Source of the DNA: Frankia sp. AiPs1
GTDB taxonomy: Bacteria > Actinomycetota > Actinomycetes > Frankiales > Frankiaceae
Length of the DNA: 32,732 nt
Reading direction: 5' to 3'
NCBI RefSeq assembly: GCF_023716945.1
Contig: NZ_JAMQQF010000022.1
Coordinates: forward strand, 1 to 32,732
A program made the position numbers and the translations under genes. A model generated the notes under the pieces. The model made no database searches. It worked only from the letters and a program-made list of their open reading frames with translations, and was not told the DNA's origin. Positions 2,964 to 19,774 of this stretch are shown here, piece by piece. How positions within the stretch are numbered: the first letter of the stretch is position 1; the number at the start of each line of letters is the position of its first letter.

Positions 2964-3193
2964 ATCCGACACTGGGGACCAGCCGCTGAGAACCAACCGC
3001 GCAGAACCGGCCGACGGGATGTCGACCGGCTGTACCTCTTGTCGCACATCGCGCAGGAATTCGCCAGCTCCCTGAGCGCGCACGGCCGTCCAGTTCCTGC
3101 TGTTTCCCGGTGACGTCCGCGGAATGCCACAATTCCGATTCGCCACCGGGAGATTCACCCAATCACCGTTACACCATCACCCCGGTTTGCGTC

Positions 3194-3223
3194 GGTCTCC
3201 CGCCGCCACGACGGCGGGAGACC
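3194..3223. terminator. perfect 12-bp stem hairpin between convergent genes
   Basis: GGTCTCCCGCCG (3194-3205) and CGGCGGGAGACC (3212-3223) are exact reverse complements around a 6-base loop. The stem lies 20 bases beyond the stop of the minus-strand gene ending at 3244 and about 230 bases beyond the PAC2 stop. There is no T-run, as is common for actinobacterial terminators. It probably serves both convergent genes. Confidence 0.75.
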
Positions 3224-3243
3224 CGAACCAGATCCGGGCAGTC

Positions 3244-3657
3244 TCAACGGCGGTCGGACACGCGGCCGATGCTCGCGTCCGACAGCGCCCGGACCGACAG
3301 CCCGTCGACGAACCGCTCGACGATCGCCCCCACCGGCCAGCGATCGACCTCTGTGAGCAGGCGCGATGCCTCCGCGTCGGCGTGGCGGGCGTCCCAGCCC
3401 TGCGCGTCCAGACTATTACGCAATGCCTCACGGTAATCCGTTTCCGTGACTCCGGGAAGGTCGCGGACCATCGCCGTCGTCGTTCCGTAGAAAGAGCCCA
3501 GGCCGACGAAGACCCGACCGCACTCGCACCGGCCGTGCGGCCGGTCCAGGTGCATGTCACAGAACGCCCGCAGGGTTACGAGCTCACCTTCCACCGCCCA
3601 GTGGAAATCGTCGACACGCAGGCCCTGCGCGTACGCGGTGGCCGTGAGAAGTTTCAT
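3244..3657 (-). CDS. small Cys/His-containing protein of unknown function (137 aa)
   Basis: 137 residues starting MKLLTATAYAQGLRVDDFHW. I chose ATG 3657 because GAGGAG lies 10 bases upstream and because I recall a widespread actinobacterial small-protein family that begins MKxLTAT and carries a CxCGR motif. An in-frame ATG at 3768 would add 37 residues but has no clear ribosome site. Seen: a cluster CDMHLDRPHGRCECGR (about residues 32-47) with three Cys and two His that could bind metal, then GLGSFYGTTTAMVRDLPG, followed by two helices (YREALRNSLDAQGW, ASRLLTEVDRWPVGAIV). No signal peptide or membrane segment. The function is not known to me. It is divergent from the sensor kinase with 204 bp between them. 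Confidence 0.75.
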   Translation of the reverse strand: MKLLTATAYAQGLRVDDFHWAVEGELVTLRAFCDMHLDRPHGRCECGRVFVGLGSFYGTTTAMVRDLPGVTETDYREALRNSLDAQGWDARHADAEASRLLTEVDRWPVGAIVERFVDGLSVRALSDASIGRVSDRR

Positions 3658-3861
3658 GACTCCCAAGCTCCTCGTGGTCGCCCGACCGCTTCCGGGTGGG
3701 AAGCGGATGCCCTCCGGATCTACGAGAAGACAACCATCCCCCACCGACAAAAGTCTCGGCTTAGCCATGATCGGGGTACTCTCGACGCACGCCTCGGACC
3801 GGCCGCGGGGACCGGCCCGAGACGATTCCGGTGGGAAGATCCAGTGGGAGGACGGCAGCCG

Positions 3862-5088
3862 GTGACTGCGCCTGTCGCCGCCACGGCCGACTCCACCCCG
3901 ACCCCCGAAGGTGCCGGATCCGCCGAGGCCGCCACGCCCCGCCGGCAACGGCTCGCCGCGGGCGCCGCGACCTGGCGGGGTGTTCTGTTCCTGCTGCTGA
4001 ACCTCCCTTTGGGCATTATCGGCTTCGTCTGCGTGACGACCGCGCTGGCCCTCGGCGCGGGCCTGGTGGTCACGGTGATCGGGATACCCGTGCTCGCGTT
4101 CGGCCTGCAGTTGTGCCGCGTGTTGGGCACCATCGAGCGGGTCCGGGCCCGGTGGCTGCTCGGCCTGAGGATCGACGCCCCGTCGCGGCGGCCGCGCCGG
4201 CGGGCCGGCGGGCTCGGCTCGATGTTCGCCGCGCTGGCCGATCCGGTGTCCTGGCGGACGGCGCTGTACCTGTTCATCCGCCTGCCCTGGAGCATCATCA
4301 GCTTCGTGGCGGCGGTGCTGCTGCTCACCGTGGGCTGGGTGGTGCTGCCCTCGGCCACGCGCGGGCTCGTCGCGGTCGATCGGGCGATGATCCGCGGACT
4401 GCTCTCCCCGTCGGAGGGGGTGGAACGGCGGATCCGGGAACTGGAGGCGGACCGGGGAACGCTCGCCGACTCCGCCGCCGCCGACCTGCGGCGGATCGAA
4501 CGCGACCTGCACGACGGCGCGCAGGCCCGGCTCGTCGCGCTGGCCATGGGCCTGGGGCTGGCGAAGGAGAAGCTCGCCGACGATCCGGACGCCGCCGCCC
4601 TCATGGTCGCCGAGGCACACGGCGAGGCGAAGCTCGCCCTGCAGGAGCTGCGCGACCTCGCCCGCGGCATCCATCCCGCGATCCTCACCGATCGCGGTCT
4701 GCCCGCGGCCCTGGCCTCGCTGGCCGCCCGGTGCACCGTGCCCACCCGGGCCGCCGTCGAGCTGAGCGGCCGGCCGGCCGCCGCTCTGGAGGGCATCGTC
4801 TACTTCACCGCGTCGGAGCTGCTCACCAACATCAGTAAGCACAGCCAGGCCAGCGCCGCCTCGATCGAGCTGAGCCGCTGCGACGGCGCCAGCCTGCTAC
4901 TGCGGGTCAGCGACGACGGTGTCGGCGGCGCGGATCCCCGCCGCGGCACGGGCCTCGCCGGTCTGACCGGACGCCTGGACGCCATCGACGGCACCCTGGT
5001 CGTCGACAGCCCTCCTGGTGGCCCAACCCTGGTCAGCGTCGCGCTGCCCTGGCGGGATGCCACCGATGACCCCGGTTACGGGCGTTGA
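3862..5088 (+). CDS. sensor histidine kinase, NarL/DesK type (HisKA_3)
   Basis: 408-residue membrane histidine kinase. GTG 3862 is chosen for GGGAGGA (3846-3852) nine bases upstream; the frame is open further 5' but overlaps the divergent gene's promoter side. Seen: an Ala/Pro-rich N-terminus, four hydrophobic segments in two pairs (about 41-60, 62-84, 132-152, 153-168) matching the 'putative sensor' domain of actinobacterial kinases, then the dimerisation/phosphoacceptor helix ADLRRIERDLHDGAQARL with His217. The HATPase domain follows, with an N-box (SELLTNISKHSQA), G1 box (VSDDGVGGA) and G2 box (GTGLAGLTGRL). Such kinases usually sit beside a LuxR-type response regulator; none is adjacent here, so it looks like an orphan within this window. 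The signal is unknown. Confidence 0.93.
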   Translation: MTAPVAATADSTPTPEGAGSAEAATPRRQRLAAGAATWRGVLFLLLNLPLGIIGFVCVTTALALGAGLVVTVIGIPVLAFGLQLCRVLGTIERVRARWLLGLRIDAPSRRPRRRAGGLGSMFAALADPVSWRTALYLFIRLPWSIISFVAAVLLLTVGWVVLPSATRGLVAVDRAMIRGLLSPSEGVERRIRELEADRGTLADSAAADLRRIERDLHDGAQARLVALAMGLGLAKEKLADDPDAAALMVAEAHGEAKLALQELRDLARGIHPAILTDRGLPAALASLAARCTVPTRAAVELSGRPAAALEGIVYFTASELLTNISKHSQASAASIELSRCDGASLLLRVSDDGVGGADPRRGTGLAGLTGRLDAIDGTLVVDSPPGGPTLVSVALPWRDATDDPGYGR

Positions 5089-12094: not shown

Positions 12095-14155
12095 TCAGGT
12101 CACCGTCCACAGCCGGGTCTGATCGCCGCCGGCGCTGGCGACCGTGCGTCCGTCGGGACTGAAGGAAACCGAGAACACCGGACCACCCTGTGCTGGGGAC
12201 GTTCCAAGCGTGCGAAGCAGGGCGGGATCCGACACGTCCCAGAACCCGACGGATCCATCCGTCCCCCCCGTGGCAAGGGTGCGGTTGTCCGGGCTGAAAG
12301 CCAGCGACAGCAACGCCCCCGATCGGATGGTCAGCGGGGCGCCGAGCGCCTGTGGATGCGCCGCGTCACTGATGTTCCAGAGCCGCATGGTGTCGTCGGC
12401 GCCGCTGGCGAGGACTCGCCCGTCCGGGCTGAACGCAACCGAGGACACCGAGCCGGCATGACCGGTCAGCGCCACGCCAAGCTGACGGGGCGCGGACACG
12501 TCCGCGATATCCCACAACCACACCTCGTCGTTGGCAGCGCCGATCGCGACGACCTCCCCGTCCGGAGAGATCGCCAGTGAGTTCGGCGGGCTCGGCGTCA
12601 CCTGGCGGCTGACAGCCCGTGGCCGATGGGGATCGCGGACGTCCCAGAGGCGGAAGGCGGAGTCCGAGCTGATGGTGATCAGAGAGCCGCTGCGGATGAA
12701 CGCGACGTCCAGGGCACGGCCGTTGTCGACCTGGCTCAGCCGGGTGGGTCGCCCCTCCTGCGCCACGTCCCACACGGCAAGTCCTCCACGCGTGCCGACG
12801 GTCGCCACCATCCGCCCGTCGGCGGAGTACGAGGCGGAACGCACCGGGCCGCTCGGAACGAGCGTCGCCTCGCCGCCGGCCGGCGGCGGCGGGAGAAGGC
12901 CGAAGTGCGCCGAGGTACGGCTCGGCTCGTAGGTCCCGGCGCTGGTGATCGGCGCCGGGACAACCTGGGCAGAGCTGGTGACCGGGGCCCGCTGCAGCGC
13001 GATGGCGGGGGCGGCCGCCCGGTGGTCGGCGCGCAGCAGACCGACCTGCCAGAGGCCGGCGGACACCGGCACCAGGACGGCGAGGATCACTACCAGGAAC
13101 AGCAGCGAGCGCGACGACAGCCGATGCTGGGCCACCGCGGCCGCGGTCGTCGCATCACGCTCGACCATCTTTTCAGCCCGGGCCGCAGGTGCGGAGCCCA
13201 GCCCAACCGGCTGCGGTCCGCCGCCGCTGGAGCCGGCCCCGGTCGCGGCGCCCGGCCGGTCCCCGGGTCGGTCAGGCGCGGAGGGCGCTGGGCAGACGGG
13301 AAGTGCCTGGCAGGCGGGGAGTGCCGGGCAGGCGGGGAGTGCCGGGCGAGCAGGGGACGGCCGCGCGGAGGAGGCGATCGCCGCGCGGATCGTGGCTCGG
13401 GCTGTCTCGGTCGGCACGTAGGCGTCGAGCAGACGTTCGACGGCGGCGTCCAGCCGGCGGGCCTGGTCCTCCAGTTCCCGGGTCCGTTCCTGCTCGCGGA
13501 ACAGATGCATCTGCAGCTCGACCGCTTCGCGGCTCTGATCCGTGGCACGTGCTCGTAGCCGGACGAGCTCCGTGAGGGCGGCGTCCCGGTCCTCGGTGAG
13601 CTGGTCGCAGCGGCGGACCGCCTCCTGCTCACCCAGGGCCGCATCTCGAAGCTCATGGCCGAGCTGTTCGAGGGTCATCCGATACCGGGCGTTCTGCTGA
13701 CGGATATCGGTCAGATCGTCGATCTCCTCGAGCCGGGTGGGCACCCGGACATCCCGGATGTGACCGCGATACCTCGGTGGCGGACTACCCCCGCGGGCCG
13801 CCCGCCACAACCCGGCCAGGTGGGCCACCTCCTCCGCCACCTCGTCCGCGGGGAGGCAGGCGTGAGCGACGTCCCGCACGTAGGGCCACTCCGGGCCTCG
13901 GGCATAGGGCGGACGCCCCCGGAACTGCCGGGACAGCTTCTTGTCGTCCAGCGTGGCCAGCGAGAGCTCCGGTTGGACCTCCCGAACGTGCGCGAAGAGG
14001 TTCGTGCGCGAACCGTGCGCCGAGCTGATCAGCTCGTCCAGCCACTCCACCAGAGCCCGCACAGCGGGGCTCACCTGCGGATCGCTGCTCGTCTTCGGGG
14101 GCGCACCGCGTCTGGCCCGCCGCACCGAGCCCTTGCTGCCGGGTCCCAACACCAC
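12095..14155 (-). CDS. HTH-like / coiled-coil / transmembrane / WD40 repeat protein
   Basis: 686-residue multidomain protein. GTG 14155 has GGAGGG 5 bases upstream; the second GTG (14152) is also possible. Domains in order: basic N-terminus (1-25); a helical domain (about 29-120, VRALVEWLDEL ... DDKKLSRQFRGRPPY ... WPYVRDVAHAC) resembling the degenerate XRE-type HTH found at the N-terminus of many actinobacterial effector proteins; a long coiled coil (about 142-246); a Pro/Ala/Cys linker with 18-bp repeats (264-293); one hydrophobic helix (350-372, LLFLVVILAVLVPVSAGLW); and a C-terminal beta-propeller with six readable WD40 blades (437-686, e.g. FSPDGRVLASGADDTMRLWNI). With one membrane span the propeller would lie on the opposite side from the HTH/coiled coil. 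No catalytic domain is seen. It could relay an external or wall signal to an internal partner; this is inference. Confidence 0.85.
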   Translation of the reverse strand: MVLGPGSKGSVRRARRGAPPKTSSDPQVSPAVRALVEWLDELISSAHGSRTNLFAHVREVQPELSLATLDDKKLSRQFRGRPPYARGPEWPYVRDVAHACLPADEVAEEVAHLAGLWRAARGGSPPPRYRGHIRDVRVPTRLEEIDDLTDIRQQNARYRMTLEQLGHELRDAALGEQEAVRRCDQLTEDRDAALTELVRLRARATDQSREAVELQMHLFREQERTRELEDQARRLDAAVERLLDAYVPTETARATIRAAIASSARPSPARPALPACPALPACQALPVCPAPSAPDRPGDRPGAATGAGSSGGGPQPVGLGSAPAARAEKMVERDATTAAAVAQHRLSSRSLLFLVVILAVLVPVSAGLWQVGLLRADHRAAAPAIALQRAPVTSSAQVVPAPITSAGTYEPSRTSAHFGLLPPPPAGGEATLVPSGPVRSASYSADGRMVATVGTRGGLAVWDVAQEGRPTRLSQVDNGRALDVAFIRSGSLITISSDSAFRLWDVRDPHRPRAVSRQVTPSPPNSLAISPDGEVVAIGAANDEVWLWDIADVSAPRQLGVALTGHAGSVSSVAFSPDGRVLASGADDTMRLWNISDAAHPQALGAPLTIRSGALLSLAFSPDNRTLATGGTDGSVGFWDVSDPALLRTLGTSPAQGGPVFSVSFSPDGRTVASAGGDQTRLWTVT
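13290..13343. repeat. 18-bp tandem repeat, 3 units, coding
   Basis: Units 13290-13307, 13308-13325 and 13326-13343 encode repeated Ala-Leu-Pro-x-Cys-Pro hexapeptides in the linker of the WD40 protein, placing three Cys residues six apart in a disordered segment. Confidence 0.75.
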
Positions 14156-15786: not shown

Positions 15787-16519
15787 CGAACGGGGCCCTG
15801 GAAATACGGCGTTCGGCCCCGGACGCCTGTCCGACAGTCCACATCGGGACAGGCGAGCTGCAGCGGAGCGTCGCCGATGAGGCTCGACGTTCCGCCCCGG
15901 AATCGGACGGGGGTCATTTCTGACCGGCGGCGGTGACCGGCCGGGGAGGATGTTGCGGCGGTACGCGGAACGGGCGCGGATGCGCGGGGTTGGCGGTGTG
16001 AGCACGGCCGGCACTGTGGACGCCGACGTCCAGGCCGCGCTGACCGTCGATCGTCTCCCGACCCGCGCCGGTGTTCCCCGCGCATGGCTGTCAGCAACGC
16101 CGACGTTGCCTCTCTCGCCGCAGGGGGTCGCGGACGGTAGCCGCGTGGCCTTTGCGGCTCAACGGCAACATCTGTGGCGGTTTTTCGCACGTGCGAACGC
16201 GGCGGGAGACGGAACCATAGACTGGCGGAATGCGGCGGCGCACGGACGGCACCGGCTCACCCGCGCCCACCCACCTGCTCTCCGAGACGTCGGACTGCGC
16301 CCGCCCCGGCCGCCGCGGCGGGCGAACCGGTCGGCTGATCGGCCCCTGCCAGGGACACGGCCCCGTCCTGTCGCCCGACCGCCCGTCGCCCGACCCACCC
16401 GTCACCCGACCGCCCGTCACTCGACCGCCCGGCGCCTGACGGCCCGTGACCCGCGCTCGACCGCACCGCGAACGACGCACCGGCACCGCGCCAGCCACCG
16501 ATCTTCCCTGGGGGCACTT
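15787..16519. other. about 730-bp gap before the receiver/flavoenzyme gene
   Basis: The frame of the downstream gene stays open back to 15950, but the extra 190 residues are Arg/Pro/His-rich and composition is non-coding after about 16140. The stretch holds a perfect 14-bp palindrome (16184-16197), a TANNNT box (16218-16223) and degenerate CCCGACCGCCCGTC-type repeats (about 16371-16432). I see no convincing gene here. The part 15950-16140 has fairly coding-like third positions, and a short protein there cannot be excluded. Confidence 0.5.
16184..16229 (+). promoter_or_regulatory. perfect 14-bp palindrome plus -10 box, promoter candidate for the two-component operon
   Basis: TTCGCACGTGCGAA (16184-16197) is a perfect palindrome. 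TAGACT (16218-16223) is a TANNNT -10 that would start transcription at about 16230, putting the palindrome centre near -40, where activators or repressors commonly bind. The resulting leader to the ATG at 16520 is about 290 bases. An ATG at 16230 opens a 69-codon Pro/Arg-rich frame (to 16439) that I doubt is a gene. The motif does not match the CRP (TGTGA-n6-TCACA) or LexA consensus. Confidence 0.5.
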
Positions 16520-18238
16520 ATGACGTCCGCATCGGCTCCGCCCACGCCCGGCGCCGCGGCGGCGCCCGGTTCGAGGGCCCCGGCCCGCCCGGCGATCCTC
16601 ACCGTCGACGACGACCCGAGCGTCTCCCGCGCGGTCGCTCGCGACCTGCGGCGCCAGTACGGGGAGCGCTACCGGATCGTGCGCGCCGAGTCCGGCTCGC
16701 AGGCGCTCGACGCGCTGCGGGAGATGAAACTGCGTGGCGACCGGGTCGCCGTGCTGCTCGCGGACTTCCGGATGCCGACGATGAACGGCATCGAGTTCCT
16801 CGAGCAGGCGATGGACCTGTACCCGACGGCGCGCCGCGTGCTGCTGACCGCGTACGCCGACACCACCGCGGCGATCGACGCCATCAACATCGTCGATCTC
16901 GACCACTACCTGCTCAAGCCGTGGGACCCGCCGCAGGAGAAGCTCTACCCGGTCGTCGACGGCCTGCTCGACGCCTGGCTCGCCGCCGATCACGCCCCCG
17001 TCACCGAGACCCGCGTGGTCGGGCACCGCTGGTCGGCGCGTTCCTACGAGGTGCGCGACTTCCTCGCCCGCAACCAGGTGCCCTACCGCTGGTACCTGTC
17101 CGAGGAGCCGGAGGGCGCGCGGCTGCTGGCCGCGGCCGAGGCATCCCCGGACACCCTGCCGGTCGTGATCACCGCTGACGGGGTGACGCTGACCGACCCC
17201 ACCGACGCCGAGCTCGCCGGCCGCGTCGGGCTGACGACCTCCCCCACCGAGGACTTCTACGACGTCGTGGTGATCGGCGGCGGCCCGGCGGGACTGGGCT
17301 CGGCGGTGTACGCGGCCTCGGAGGGGCTGCGCACCGTGCTCGTCGAGCGCACGGCCACCGGCGGGCAGGCTGGCCAGAGCTCGCGGATCGAGAACTACCT
17401 GGGCTTCCCCGACGGCGTGTCCGGCGCCCAGCTCACCGACCGGGCCCGCCGCCAGGCCATCAAGTTCGGCGCGGAGGTCCTCACCGCCCGCGACGCCGTC
17501 ACGCTGGAGGTCTGCGGGCCGGCGCGCACGGTCCACTTCGACGACGGCCGGCAGATCTCCGCACACGCCGTCGTCCTCGCCACCGGGGTGTCCTACCGGC
17601 AGCTCGCCGCCCCCGGCCTGGACGAGTTCACCGGCCGCGGGGTGTTCTACGGCTCCGCGCTCACCGAGGCGCCCTCCTGCGCCGGGCAGGACGTCTACAT
17701 CGTCGGGGGGGCGAACTCCGCCGGCCAGGCCGCGATGCACTTCGCCCGGCACGCCCGGCGGGTCACCATGGTGGTGCGCGGGTCGTCGCTGGCGGCGTCG
17801 ATGTCCCACTACCTGATCCAGCAGATCGCCGGGGTCGAGGCGATCACCGTGCGGACCTGCACCGAGATCGTCTCGGCGGCGGGGGACGGCCACCTCGAAC
17901 GGCTCACGCTGCGCGACAATGCCAGCGGGCAGACCGAGACGGTCGACACCCAGTGGCTGTTCATCTTCATCGGCGCCGCGCCACGCACGAGCTGGCTCGA
18001 CGGCGTGCTGACCCGCGACGAGCGCGGGTTCGTCCTAGCCGGACCGGACCTGGTCGTCGACGGGCGCCGCCCGCCGGGCTGGTCCCTCGATCGCGACCCC
18101 TACCACCTGGAGACGTCGGTGCCGGGGGTGTTCGTCGCCGGCGACGCCCGCGCCGAATCGGTGAAGCGGGTGGCCTCGGCGGTCGGCGAGGGCGCCATGG
18201 CCATCGCGCTCGTCCACCGCTACCTGGAAAAGCGCTGA
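16520..18238 (+). CDS. response-regulator receiver fused to thioredoxin-reductase-like FAD oxidoreductase
   Basis: 572-residue fusion; databases call such proteins 'fused response regulator/thioredoxin-disulfide reductase'. ATG 16520 follows a weak GGGGG. Domains: receiver (about 24-150) with acidic pair VDDD, phosphoacceptor Asp82 (ADFRMP), Thr110 (LLTAY), Lys133 (LLKPW); a glutaredoxin-like segment (about 165-235, WSARSYEVRDFLARNQVPY ... LPVVITADGVTL) with no CxxC; FAD domain with VIGGGPAGLGSAVYAA (about 251-266) and TGGQAGQSSRIENYLGFP; and NAD(P)H domain VYIVGGANSAGQAA. The site that is CATC in thioredoxin reductase reads GSAL (378-381), so the enzyme cannot reduce thioredoxin by the usual dithiol route. 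I recall relatives also lacking it. The C-terminus has the FAD-closing VFVAGDARAESVKRVASAVGEG. It is the likely target of the kinase 60 bp downstream. Confidence 0.93.
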   Translation: MTSASAPPTPGAAAAPGSRAPARPAILTVDDDPSVSRAVARDLRRQYGERYRIVRAESGSQALDALREMKLRGDRVAVLLADFRMPTMNGIEFLEQAMDLYPTARRVLLTAYADTTAAIDAINIVDLDHYLLKPWDPPQEKLYPVVDGLLDAWLAADHAPVTETRVVGHRWSARSYEVRDFLARNQVPYRWYLSEEPEGARLLAAAEASPDTLPVVITADGVTLTDPTDAELAGRVGLTTSPTEDFYDVVVIGGGPAGLGSAVYAASEGLRTVLVERTATGGQAGQSSRIENYLGFPDGVSGAQLTDRARRQAIKFGAEVLTARDAVTLEVCGPARTVHFDDGRQISAHAVVLATGVSYRQLAAPGLDEFTGRGVFYGSALTEAPSCAGQDVYIVGGANSAGQAAMHFARHARRVTMVVRGSSLAASMSHYLIQQIAGVEAITVRTCTEIVSAAGDGHLERLTLRDNASGQTETVDTQWLFIFIGAAPRTSWLDGVLTRDERGFVLAGPDLVVDGRRPPGWSLDRDPYHLETSVPGVFVAGDARAESVKRVASAVGEGAMAIALVHRYLEKR

Positions 18239-18262
18239 ACCACCTCGCCACCGCGTTGACGG

Positions 18263-18296
18263 TGACGCCGAGAGGGCGATGACACCGAGAGGGCGA
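18263..18296 (+). repeat. 17-bp tandem duplication carrying the ribosome-binding site
   Basis: Units 18263-18279 and 18280-18296 differ at one base and each contains CGAGAGGGCGA. The second copy supplies the Shine-Dalgarno (GAGAGGG, 18287-18293) five bases before the kinase ATG. The duplication also creates a 7-codon frame (ATG 18279, TGA 18300-18302) whose stop overlaps the kinase start as ATGA. Confidence 0.75.
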
Positions 18297-18298
18297 TC

Positions 18299-19774
18299 AT
18301 GACACCGGTTCCCTGCGACGTCGACGAGCTGCGCACCCTGTTCCTGTTCGAGAAGCTCACCGACGATCAGCTCCACTGGCTGTGCGAACGCGGCCACGCC
18401 GAACTGCTCGAGCCGGGCCCGGTCTACCGCGAGGGTGCGCCGGCGACCTGCTTCTACGTGCTCATCTCCGGCGCGCTGGTGATGTCCACTCGGGTCGGTG
18501 CGGACGACATCGAGGTGGTGCGCTCGAACCAGCGCGGGGTGTACGCCGGCGCCTGGCACGCCTACCTCGGCGACCGGGTTCCCCAGGTCTACAAGAACTC
18601 GATGCGGGTGACCGAGCCCAGCCGCTTCTTCGTCCTCGACGCCGACGACGTGGCGACCGTGATGCGCGAGTGGTTCCCGATGGCCCTGCACATGCTCGAG
18701 GGTCTGTTCTTCGGCATGCAGAGCACCCAGCAGGTGGTCGGCCAGCGGGAGCGGCTGCTCGCGCTGGGTTCGCTGTCCGCGGGGCTGACCCACGAGCTGA
18801 ACAACCCGGCGGCCGCGGCCGTGCGGGCGACCTCGGCGCTGCGCGAGCGGGTCGCCGGCATGCGACACAAGCTCGGCATGATCGCCGCCGGTCCGTACGA
18901 GCGCACCGAGCTGGAGGTGCTCATCCGCCTGCAGGAGGAGGCGGTGGAGCGGGTGGCGAAGGCACCGACGCTCACCCCGATCGAGGTCTCGGACCGCGAG
19001 GATCTCATCGGCGACTGGCTGGACGAACGCGACATCGGCGACGCCTGGGACGTCGCGCCGATCTTCGTGCAGGCCGGCCTGGACGTCGCCTGGCTCGACC
19101 ATGTGGCCGGCTCGGTGCCGGCGGGCGTGCTCGACGGCGCCGTGCGCTGGCTGACCTACACCGTCGAGAGCGAAATGCTCATGCGGGAGATCGAGGACTC
19201 GACCACCCGGATCTCGACCCTGGTCACCGCCGCCAAGCAGTACTCGCAGATGGACCGGGCGCCGTACCAGACCATCGACATCCACGAACTGCTCGACAGC
19301 ACCCTGATCATGCTGGGCCGCAAGATCGGCGACGACGTCGAGATCCACCGGGACTACGACCGGTCCCTGCCGGCGATCCCCGCCTACGCCGCCGAACTCA
19401 ACCAGGTCTGGACGAACCTGATCGACAACGCCGTCGCCGCGATGGACCACCGCGGCACGCTGACGGTGCGCACCTTCGCCGACCACGACACCCTCGTCGT
19501 CGAGATCGGCGACACCGGCCCGGGCATCGACCCCGTCATCCGGGACCGGATCTTCGAACCGTTCTTCACGACGAAGGCGGTCGGCGAGGGCACCGGCCTC
19601 GGGCTGGACATCTCCTGGCGGATCGTGGTGAAGAAGCACCACGGCGACCTGCGGGTCACCTCCACCCCCGGCGACACCCGCTTCCAGGTCCGCCTCCCCC
19701 TCGCCGCCCCGGCGGCCACCGGCGACCTGCCGGCGGGCCCGCCCGACAGCGGCCCGGAATCCACGCAGACGTGA
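18299..19774 (+). CDS. soluble histidine kinase with cyclic-nucleotide-binding-like domain
   Basis: 491-residue kinase without membrane segments. ATG 18299 with GAGAGGG 5 bases upstream. Domains: CNBD-like beta-roll (about 8-125: LFLFEKLTDDQLHWLCERG ... CFYVLISGALVMS). Its phosphate-binding cassette lacks the FGE and Arg-Ala pattern (here YAGAWHAYLGDRVPQVYKNS), so cAMP binding is doubtful. A HisKA-type helix follows (ALGSLSAGLTHELNNPAAAA, His165), then a long helical region and an HATPase_c domain with N-box (LNQVWTNLIDNAVAAM), G1 (DTGPGI, 405-410), F-box (FEPFFTTK) and G2 (GTGLGL, 431-436). It is co-directional with the receiver/flavoenzyme gene 60 bp upstream; together they form a two-component pair whose output is a redox enzyme, not a DNA-binding domain. 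Confidence 0.92.
   Translation: MTPVPCDVDELRTLFLFEKLTDDQLHWLCERGHAELLEPGPVYREGAPATCFYVLISGALVMSTRVGADDIEVVRSNQRGVYAGAWHAYLGDRVPQVYKNSMRVTEPSRFFVLDADDVATVMREWFPMALHMLEGLFFGMQSTQQVVGQRERLLALGSLSAGLTHELNNPAAAAVRATSALRERVAGMRHKLGMIAAGPYERTELEVLIRLQEEAVERVAKAPTLTPIEVSDREDLIGDWLDERDIGDAWDVAPIFVQAGLDVAWLDHVAGSVPAGVLDGAVRWLTYTVESEMLMREIEDSTTRISTLVTAAKQYSQMDRAPYQTIDIHELLDSTLIMLGRKIGDDVEIHRDYDRSLPAIPAYAAELNQVWTNLIDNAVAAMDHRGTLTVRTFADHDTLVVEIGDTGPGIDPVIRDRIFEPFFTTKAVGEGTGLGLDISWRIVVKKHHGDLRVTSTPGDTRFQVRLPLAAPAATGDLPAGPPDSGPESTQT

Follow-up and report, generated by a model that had tools for sequence, protein, structure and literature searches.

Introduction

To our knowledge, few response regulators are known in which a metabolic redox enzyme serves as the output. 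Response regulators that combine a receiver (REC) domain with a thioredoxin reductase (TrxR) are in print as a 'Mycobacterium-like combination' in the accessible part of PMC5847659 (J Bacteriol 2018), and the accessible part of PMC10294844 describes TrxR-like ferredoxin/flavodoxin-NADP reductases (FNRs) that possess the TrxR fold without the CxxC motif, many of which were first annotated as TrxR. REC-TrxR fusions and CxxC-less enzymes of the TrxR fold are, in other words, already known. Here we describe a two-gene operon of the soil bacterium Frankia sp. AiPs1 (draft assembly GCF_023716945.1, 7.35 Mb in 1203 contigs) on contig NZ_JAMQQF010000022.1, the analysed stretch of which, 32,732 nucleotides in length, is referred to as the window. 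Gene A encodes a fusion of a receiver, a glutaredoxin-like segment and a TrxR-like flavoenzyme, and gene B encodes a histidine kinase (Table 1); the output of this system would be a redox enzyme and not a gene switch. The domain make-up, the gene pairing, the loss of both CxxC pairs, the preserved motifs for FAD and NAD(P)H and the single origin of the group can be read from the sequences. With a little more than even confidence, we interpret gene A as encoding a putative phosphorylation-gated NAD(P)H flavin oxidoreductase that would transfer electrons directly from its flavin to a non-dithiol acceptor. With both cysteine pairs missing, the function of this TrxR-like enzyme probably differs from that of TrxR.

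Loss of both cysteine pairs in the gene A family

The fusion proposed in a preliminary description of the locus, a receiver with all phosphorylation residues followed by a glutaredoxin-like segment and an FAD/NAD(P)H oxidoreductase, was confirmed by Pfam, by alignment and by the residues themselves, with D30/D31, D82, T110 and K133 all present in the receiver. The family extends far beyond chance resemblance, as the protein shares 97% identity with its homologue in Frankia torreyi CpI1 and 73–78% with those in Streptomyces, Rhodococcus and Prauserella; beyond Actinomycetota it was sampled from plasmid records only, and E. coli was used for TrxB and AhpF only. The nearest relatives with both cysteine pairs (L154–L158 and others, of about 411 residues) contain WCPDC (WCGDC in L157) and CATC, whereas gene A contains WSARS and GSAL; in the alignment with the sister protein L154, CPDC falls on SARS (S172, S175) and CATC on GSAL (residues 378–381), in agreement with the earlier claim that CxxC is missing from both modules. 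The description "cysteine-free" does not hold literally, as the CxxC-free protein of gene A has C332, C387 and C447.

Cysteines were counted in 162 aligned rows; the CxxC-free group makes up 153 of these, including the window protein, its two further copies L003 and L011, and L143, a family member with an internal TGA stop (L143:5197-6903, minus strand). CxxC was found in 0/153 group rows in the glutaredoxin-like module and likewise in 0/153 in the flavoenzyme module, with a lone cysteine at the pair positions observed only in L181 for the flavoenzyme and only in L175 and L190 for the glutaredoxin. Neither CxxC nor CxxS occurs in the glutaredoxin-like segment of gene A, and the first cysteine is missing in all 153 rows, where position 1 is occupied by Ser in 141, and position 2 by Ser in 112 and Thr in 16. 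In a maximum-likelihood tree of 76 representatives, from which the pair-cysteine columns were left out, the 68 CxxC-free rows constitute one clade (100/100) beside 6 glutaredoxin-TrxR rows (100/94). The flavoenzyme cysteines change a single time on this tree, by which the pair was lost once, after the split from the glutaredoxin-TrxR fusions that keep both pairs. The cysteine loss, formerly only supposed to be a family trait, is one by the family alignment and this single change.

Other marks also separate the group. Arg550, at a position that presumably adjoins the pyrimidine ring of the flavin as in TrxR structures, and Q403 are each found in every CxxC-free representative (68/68 for Q403, a position at which the 6 sisters with CxxC, like E. 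coli TrxB, have Glu); Y431 is present in 68/68 representatives versus other residues in the 6 sisters, and Y377 in 99%. Ahead of the last FAD motif, 5 aligned group members share an additional run of about 20 residues that L154, E. coli TrxB and an FNR-like protein lack or have in shortened form. The glycine motifs for FAD and NAD(P)H are invariant or almost so (alignment A2), and the loss of both pairs across the sampled group together with the retention of these motifs argues for an active flavoenzyme that may work without a dithiol relay.

Cys387 was considered as a replacement active-site cysteine, since it occurs in 88/89 sequences of the first, close alignment, and was dropped because it is missing in 26/68 representatives. 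The corresponding explanation, that Cys387 alone performs disulfide chemistry on a low-molecular-weight thiol or a protein disulfide, as in one-cysteine flavoprotein reductases, appears unlikely: all 14 representatives of the clade fused to a cyclic nucleotide-binding-type (cNMP) domain keep the residue, but it changes 9 times on the tree, and members without it that have D82 and a nearby kinase are found in Deinococcus aetherius (L021) and at L138, L169 and L170.

The TrxR label had been judged wrong for this protein, and its score on TIGR01292 agrees (208 bits, below the cut-off of 343.45), as does its lack of the CxxC expected of a thioredoxin-disulfide reductase, though L154, the sister with CxxC, does not reach the cut-off either (290 bits). 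That databases apply the label thioredoxin-disulfide reductase is true of some cNMP-fused members, and several receiver-fused members are named only 'FAD-dependent oxidoreductase'; at minimum, the name misleads for part of the group. The protein might alternatively be an FNR of the TrxR-like type that carries a receiver by chance, such FNRs being likewise without CxxC and often first annotated as TrxR (PMC10294844, accessible part). This is highly improbable, since the family profile, 5 of whose rows bear CxxC, reaches up to 266 bits with TrxR-labelled chains and at most 127 with FNR-labelled ones, and since in a tree with one FNR-like protein, a single row on a long branch, the CxxC-free rows form a clade that excludes it (100/99) and were not placed in an FNR lineage.

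Structure models

The AlphaFold2 model of the gene A protein, built from 53 sequences, has a mean pLDDT of 89 and a pTM of 0.72, and Foldseek placed AhpF and TrxR entries at the top, with 23–32% identity to the listed TrxR chains. In TrxR, NADPH reduces the flavin in the FR state, and the flavin meets the CxxC in the FO state. The gene A model fits the FR structure of Lactococcus lactis TrxR (5mh4; target TM 0.95, 2.2 Å) and misfits the FO structure (5mjk; target TM 0.64, 7.7 Å), and such an FR-like model would suit an enzyme that can dispense with the FO state. A control model of the CxxC-bearing sister L154 (12 sequences, pLDDT 85.5) scores 0.78 to both 5mh4 and 5mjk, the best among its 50 listed matches being barley NTR2 (0.85).

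No Pfam model matched the glutaredoxin-like segment of gene A in the Pfam scan. The matching segment of L154 reaches 41.5 bits with Pfam Glutaredoxin and 76.6 bits with the NCBIfam mycoredoxin model, below its cut-off of 89.5; the gene A segment is called glutaredoxin-like on account of the alignment to L154 and the modelled fold, which has a pLDDT of about 90 there.

The adjoining kinase and two wirings of one core

Gene order supports the pairing of kinase and receiver, as a kinase within 3 kb and an intact D82 were found at 80/80 best loci, which are the best 80 of 510 and for the most part from Streptomyces. Gene B fits its earlier description as a soluble kinase with a degenerate cNMP domain: the ATPase domain is matched by Pfam, the cNMP score lies below the cut-off, which makes "degenerate" a fair term (Table 1), and there is no sign of a membrane span, as the highest 19-residue Kyte-Doolittle mean is 1.39. 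H165 is present in 63/63 aligned kinases and the N, G1, F and G2 boxes are mostly kept, while a HisKA domain is not listed by Pfam for gene B. The long stretch between the H-box and the pre-ATPase part may represent an insertion in the DHp domain. In L164:6677-12612 and L165:1856-7861, the receiver-flavoenzyme gene is followed by three consecutive kinase genes of the same family.

Two wirings of the CxxC-free core were observed. In one, represented by a clade of 14 representatives (100/95), the core lies behind a cNMP-type domain; 12/13 scanned members reach the Pfam cNMP_binding cut-off (L004 scanned as L135, and L182 just at the cut-off), L148 does not, and for L179, outside the 13 scanned, the fusion is taken from the RefSeq name. 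Elsewhere the core lies behind a receiver with the kinase gene adjoining, and adjoining kinases with a cNMP domain over the cut-off were found at L021, L170 and, for the upstream kinase, L022. L175 has a cNMP domain and falls outside the 14-row clade, so that the direct fusion possibly arose more than once. In L025, L176, L152 and L181, neither a receiver nor a cNMP domain was matched in the Pfam scan. The fusion of the same core to a cNMP domain elsewhere suggests that it behaves as a regulated module. The host itself has a paralogue on contig C426 (L135:6533-8935), in which the CxxC-free flavoenzyme is fused to a cNMP domain; a UBP-type zinc-finger gene lies upstream of it.

In a further branch of 16 rows (97/94) no kinase was found within 3 kb, and among its 14 scanned members 9 gave no Response_reg match at E 0.01 and 5 were below the cut-off; by these sequences, the receiver decays in this branch and the flavoenzyme stays. 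Among the 54 representatives outside the cNMP clade, 32 have kinase and D82, 0 have a kinase without D82, 8 have D82 without a kinase and 14 have neither, and at L124, one of those with D82 and without kinase, the locus ends 548 bases past the gene. Some loci have a flank of only about 1.5 kb, and little can be concluded from the absence of a kinase or UBP gene at these. On the tree outside the cNMP clade, D82 changes 6 times and the kinase 2 times, which gives too few contrasts to reach significance.

Since the flavoenzyme persists where no kinase was found, and also where the sensor domain is a different one, it is more likely the output than a sensor for the kinase. In the opposite view, the flavoenzyme is a redox sensor or pseudoenzyme that would monitor the state of NAD(P)H or of the flavin and signal back to the kinase by way of the receiver; a redox sensor with feedback on the kinase had been suggested in the preliminary description. 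The loss of the catalytic pairs from both modules and the fusion to signalling domains are in line with this view. Judged by sequence, we consider it rather unlikely, because the flavoenzyme is conserved both in the branch with decayed receivers, where a kinase was not found nearby, and in the cNMP fusions, where a receiver was not found.

Company of a UBP zinc-finger gene

In Streptomyces fungicidicus and Tsukamurella, a gene for a UBP-type zinc finger comes after the kinase; such a gene is found within 5 kb at 63/80 best loci (62/67 outside Frankia and Parafrankia, 1/13 within), some of the loci being cut short. It also adjoins cNMP-fused members in Rhodococcus, in Agrobacterium and at the Frankia paralogue on contig C426, and in L170:3777-5534 (minus strand) a single open reading frame combines cNMP_binding, the kinase ATPase and zf-UBP (40.0 bits). 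The UBP gene travels with both wirings and is once fused to the kinase. It is not beside the operon of the window, and the gene listings around receiver-fused members from Deinococcus aetherius, Caballeronia and the examined cyanobacteria do not contain it.

Across 198 genomes of the phylum, zf-UBP was found in 31/39 with a CxxC-free match versus 14/159 others (Fisher p 3e-18, a value that ignores ancestry). The 39 genomes are the 44 with a match minus 5 with the CxxC-bearing form, the match in G141 being counted uninspected; a control search for zf-UBP gave matches in 2/14 named genomes. By our own reading of two tables, flavoenzyme and zf-UBP gene lie within about 2 kb of each other in 12/31 genomes. 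The closest solved structure to the zinc finger is 2ida, a 'hypothetical protein'. In eukaryotes, the UBP zinc finger is a reader of free ubiquitin tails. It is conceivable, and we would call it a long shot, that the UBP zinc finger, together with the cNMP-domain kinase or the cNMP domain, switches a flavoenzyme in which the dithiol relay was taken apart in both modules and remade into a direct flavin-to-acceptor route, placing this output under signals of protein tails or protein quality.

Two plasmids show further neighbours of cNMP-TrxR genes. In a Rhodococcus plasmid (L177:1-6296) and a Streptomyces plasmid (L183:1-6299), the cNMP-TrxR gene ends a GrpE-DnaJ-CbpM-ClpB-TrxA run; a UBP zinc-finger gene is present in the former, and a PsiE-family gene is close by in the latter.

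Features of the locus and the rest of the window

The coordinates of the features are collected in Table 1. A start of gene A at 16184, as first given, lies upstream in the same open frame and was not retained; the accompanying numbering of D82 fits the start at 16520. Downstream of gene B, a glycosyltransferase-like gene lies on the opposite strand. Elsewhere in the window, a large WD40-repeat protein (12095-14155, minus strand) and a second histidine kinase with Sensor and HisKA_3 domains (3124-5088, plus strand) are encoded. A role of genes A and B as a defence system was dropped, as PADLOC matched neither gene.

Table 1. Positions in the window of genes A and B and of the domains and residues discussed.
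Feature	Position	Strand	Evidence or remark
Gene A, REC - glutaredoxin-like - TrxR-like flavoenzyme fusion	16520..18238	+	572 aa, ATG start
Receiver domain, residues 26-138	16595..16933	+	Pfam Response_reg 56.2 bits
Asp82, predicted phosphorylation site	16763..16765	+	kept in 80/80 best loci
Glutaredoxin-like segment, ~residues 160-235, CPDC positions S172-A-R-S175	16997..17224	+	alignment to L154; modelled fold
TrxR-like FAD/NAD(P)H module, residues 247-572	17258..18235	+	Pyr_redox_2 109.5 bits (247-558); Foldseek
GSAL, residues 378-381, at TrxR CATC position	17651..17662	+	alignment
Cys387, single cysteine	17678..17680	+	in 42/68 representative members
~20-residue insertion, within ~504-530	18029..18109	+	alignment
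Arg550	18167..18169	+	68/68 CxxC-free representatives; Gln in 6 CxxC-bearing sisters and E. coli TrxB
Gene B, soluble histidine kinase	18299..19774	+	491 aa, starts 60 bases after gene A end
Degenerate cNMP-type domain, residues 42-123	18422..18667	+	cNMP_binding 23.1 bits, cut-off 27.5
His165, presumed phospho-acceptor, in THELNNP	18791..18793	+	63/63 aligned kinases
Long stretch, ~residues 177-290 (~110), H-box to pre-ATPase part	18827..19168	+	conserved E234, L241, W250, G260
HATPase_c, residues 365-469	19391..19705	+	83.7 bits

Discussion

In the proposed mechanism, the gene B kinase, driven by its cNMP-type sensor domain, would phosphorylate Asp82 of gene A, and the resulting shift of the receiver would set the activity of the fused flavoenzyme. 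In this enzyme, FAD would accept a hydride from NAD(P)H, and the reduced flavin may hand its electrons directly to an acceptor that is not a dithiol relay; candidates are O2, a quinone, a protein of the flavodoxin or ferredoxin type, or some other partner. The dead glutaredoxin domain possibly acts as a linker or docking surface.

Several observations weigh against this interpretation. The link between kinase and D82 is not independent of ancestry, with 2 independent pairs and p 1; in the kinase-less branch, 6/16 rows keep D82 and 10 lack it; and of the 14 representatives without D82, L025, L176 and L152 have no receiver match at all and L175 has a cNMP domain instead. Cys387 is kept in 42/68 representatives. 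The conformational case consists of one model each, from 53 versus 12 sequences, and the control appears intermediate, not FO. Conservation does not name the acceptor, and trxA adjoins cNMP-fused members in Rhodococcus and in Streptomyces NBC_01001, which makes a thiol partner possible.

Such a partner is the subject of one more explanation, in which the flavin directly reduces the disulfide of a separate thioredoxin-like protein and the enzyme needs no CxxC of its own. The trxA genes beside cNMP-fused members stand in GrpE-DnaJ-CbpM-ClpB-TrxA operons, and a Gloeocapsa member is adjoined by a thioredoxin-domain gene and a DsbA-family gene, but a thioredoxin gene was listed within 5 kb of 0/7 annotated receiver-fused members, in a PLSDB gene table that is incomplete, and the FR-like model would put NADPH and not a partner disulfide at the flavin; action on a thioredoxin in trans is distinctly unlikely.

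Both ancestral redox pairs are gone across a wide bacterial group in which the enzyme is kept under two modes of control. An active flavoenzyme would amount to an NAD(P)H oxidoreductase that is switched by phosphorylation and does without the dithiol chemistry used by its ancestors, and the steady company of the UBP zinc-finger gene offers a direct lead to what the system senses or acts on.

Comparison with known systems

The literature found did not describe the paired loss of CxxC, the occurrence of one core in two wirings, the association with a UBP gene or the branch without a kinase. A functional study of this fusion, of cNMP-TrxR proteins or of a bacterial UBP zinc finger was not found either, in a literature in which subscription journals are thinly covered, and the fusion is undescribed in the examined parts of a Deinococcus redox review and a cyanobacterial redox review. 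Neighbours beyond the kinase and the UBP gene are too variable in the annotated records to indicate function.

The published REC-thioredoxin reductase combination (PMC5847659) shares the pairing of receiver and TrxR with gene A; the accessible part of that paper names the combination only and makes no mention of the CxxC loss, the cNMP-fused sister form or the UBP zinc finger. The TrxR-like FNRs share the CxxC-less TrxR fold, and their lineage is separate as far as tested (PMC10294844, accessible part). Low-molecular-weight TrxR, such as E. coli TrxB and M. smegmatis TrxR (5uth), has the fold and the FAD and NAD(P)H domains in common with gene A, which differs by the absence of CxxC, by R550 in place of Gln and Q403 in place of Glu, and by the insertion of about 20 residues. 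The mycoredoxin-like glutaredoxin-TrxR fusions (L154 and kin) share the Grx-TrxR core and form the sister clade, in which the flavoenzyme CxxC is found in 12/12, the glutaredoxin CxxC in 11/12 (L204 has CPDS) and Gln550 in the 6 compared; L154 has neither a receiver nor a cNMP match, unlike the fusions of the CxxC-free group. The proteins named 'cyclic nucleotide-binding domain-containing thioredoxin-disulfide reductase' possess the same CxxC-free core, several of them with a UBP zinc-finger neighbour, and carry the cNMP domain in direct fusion where gene A has a kinase and a receiver.

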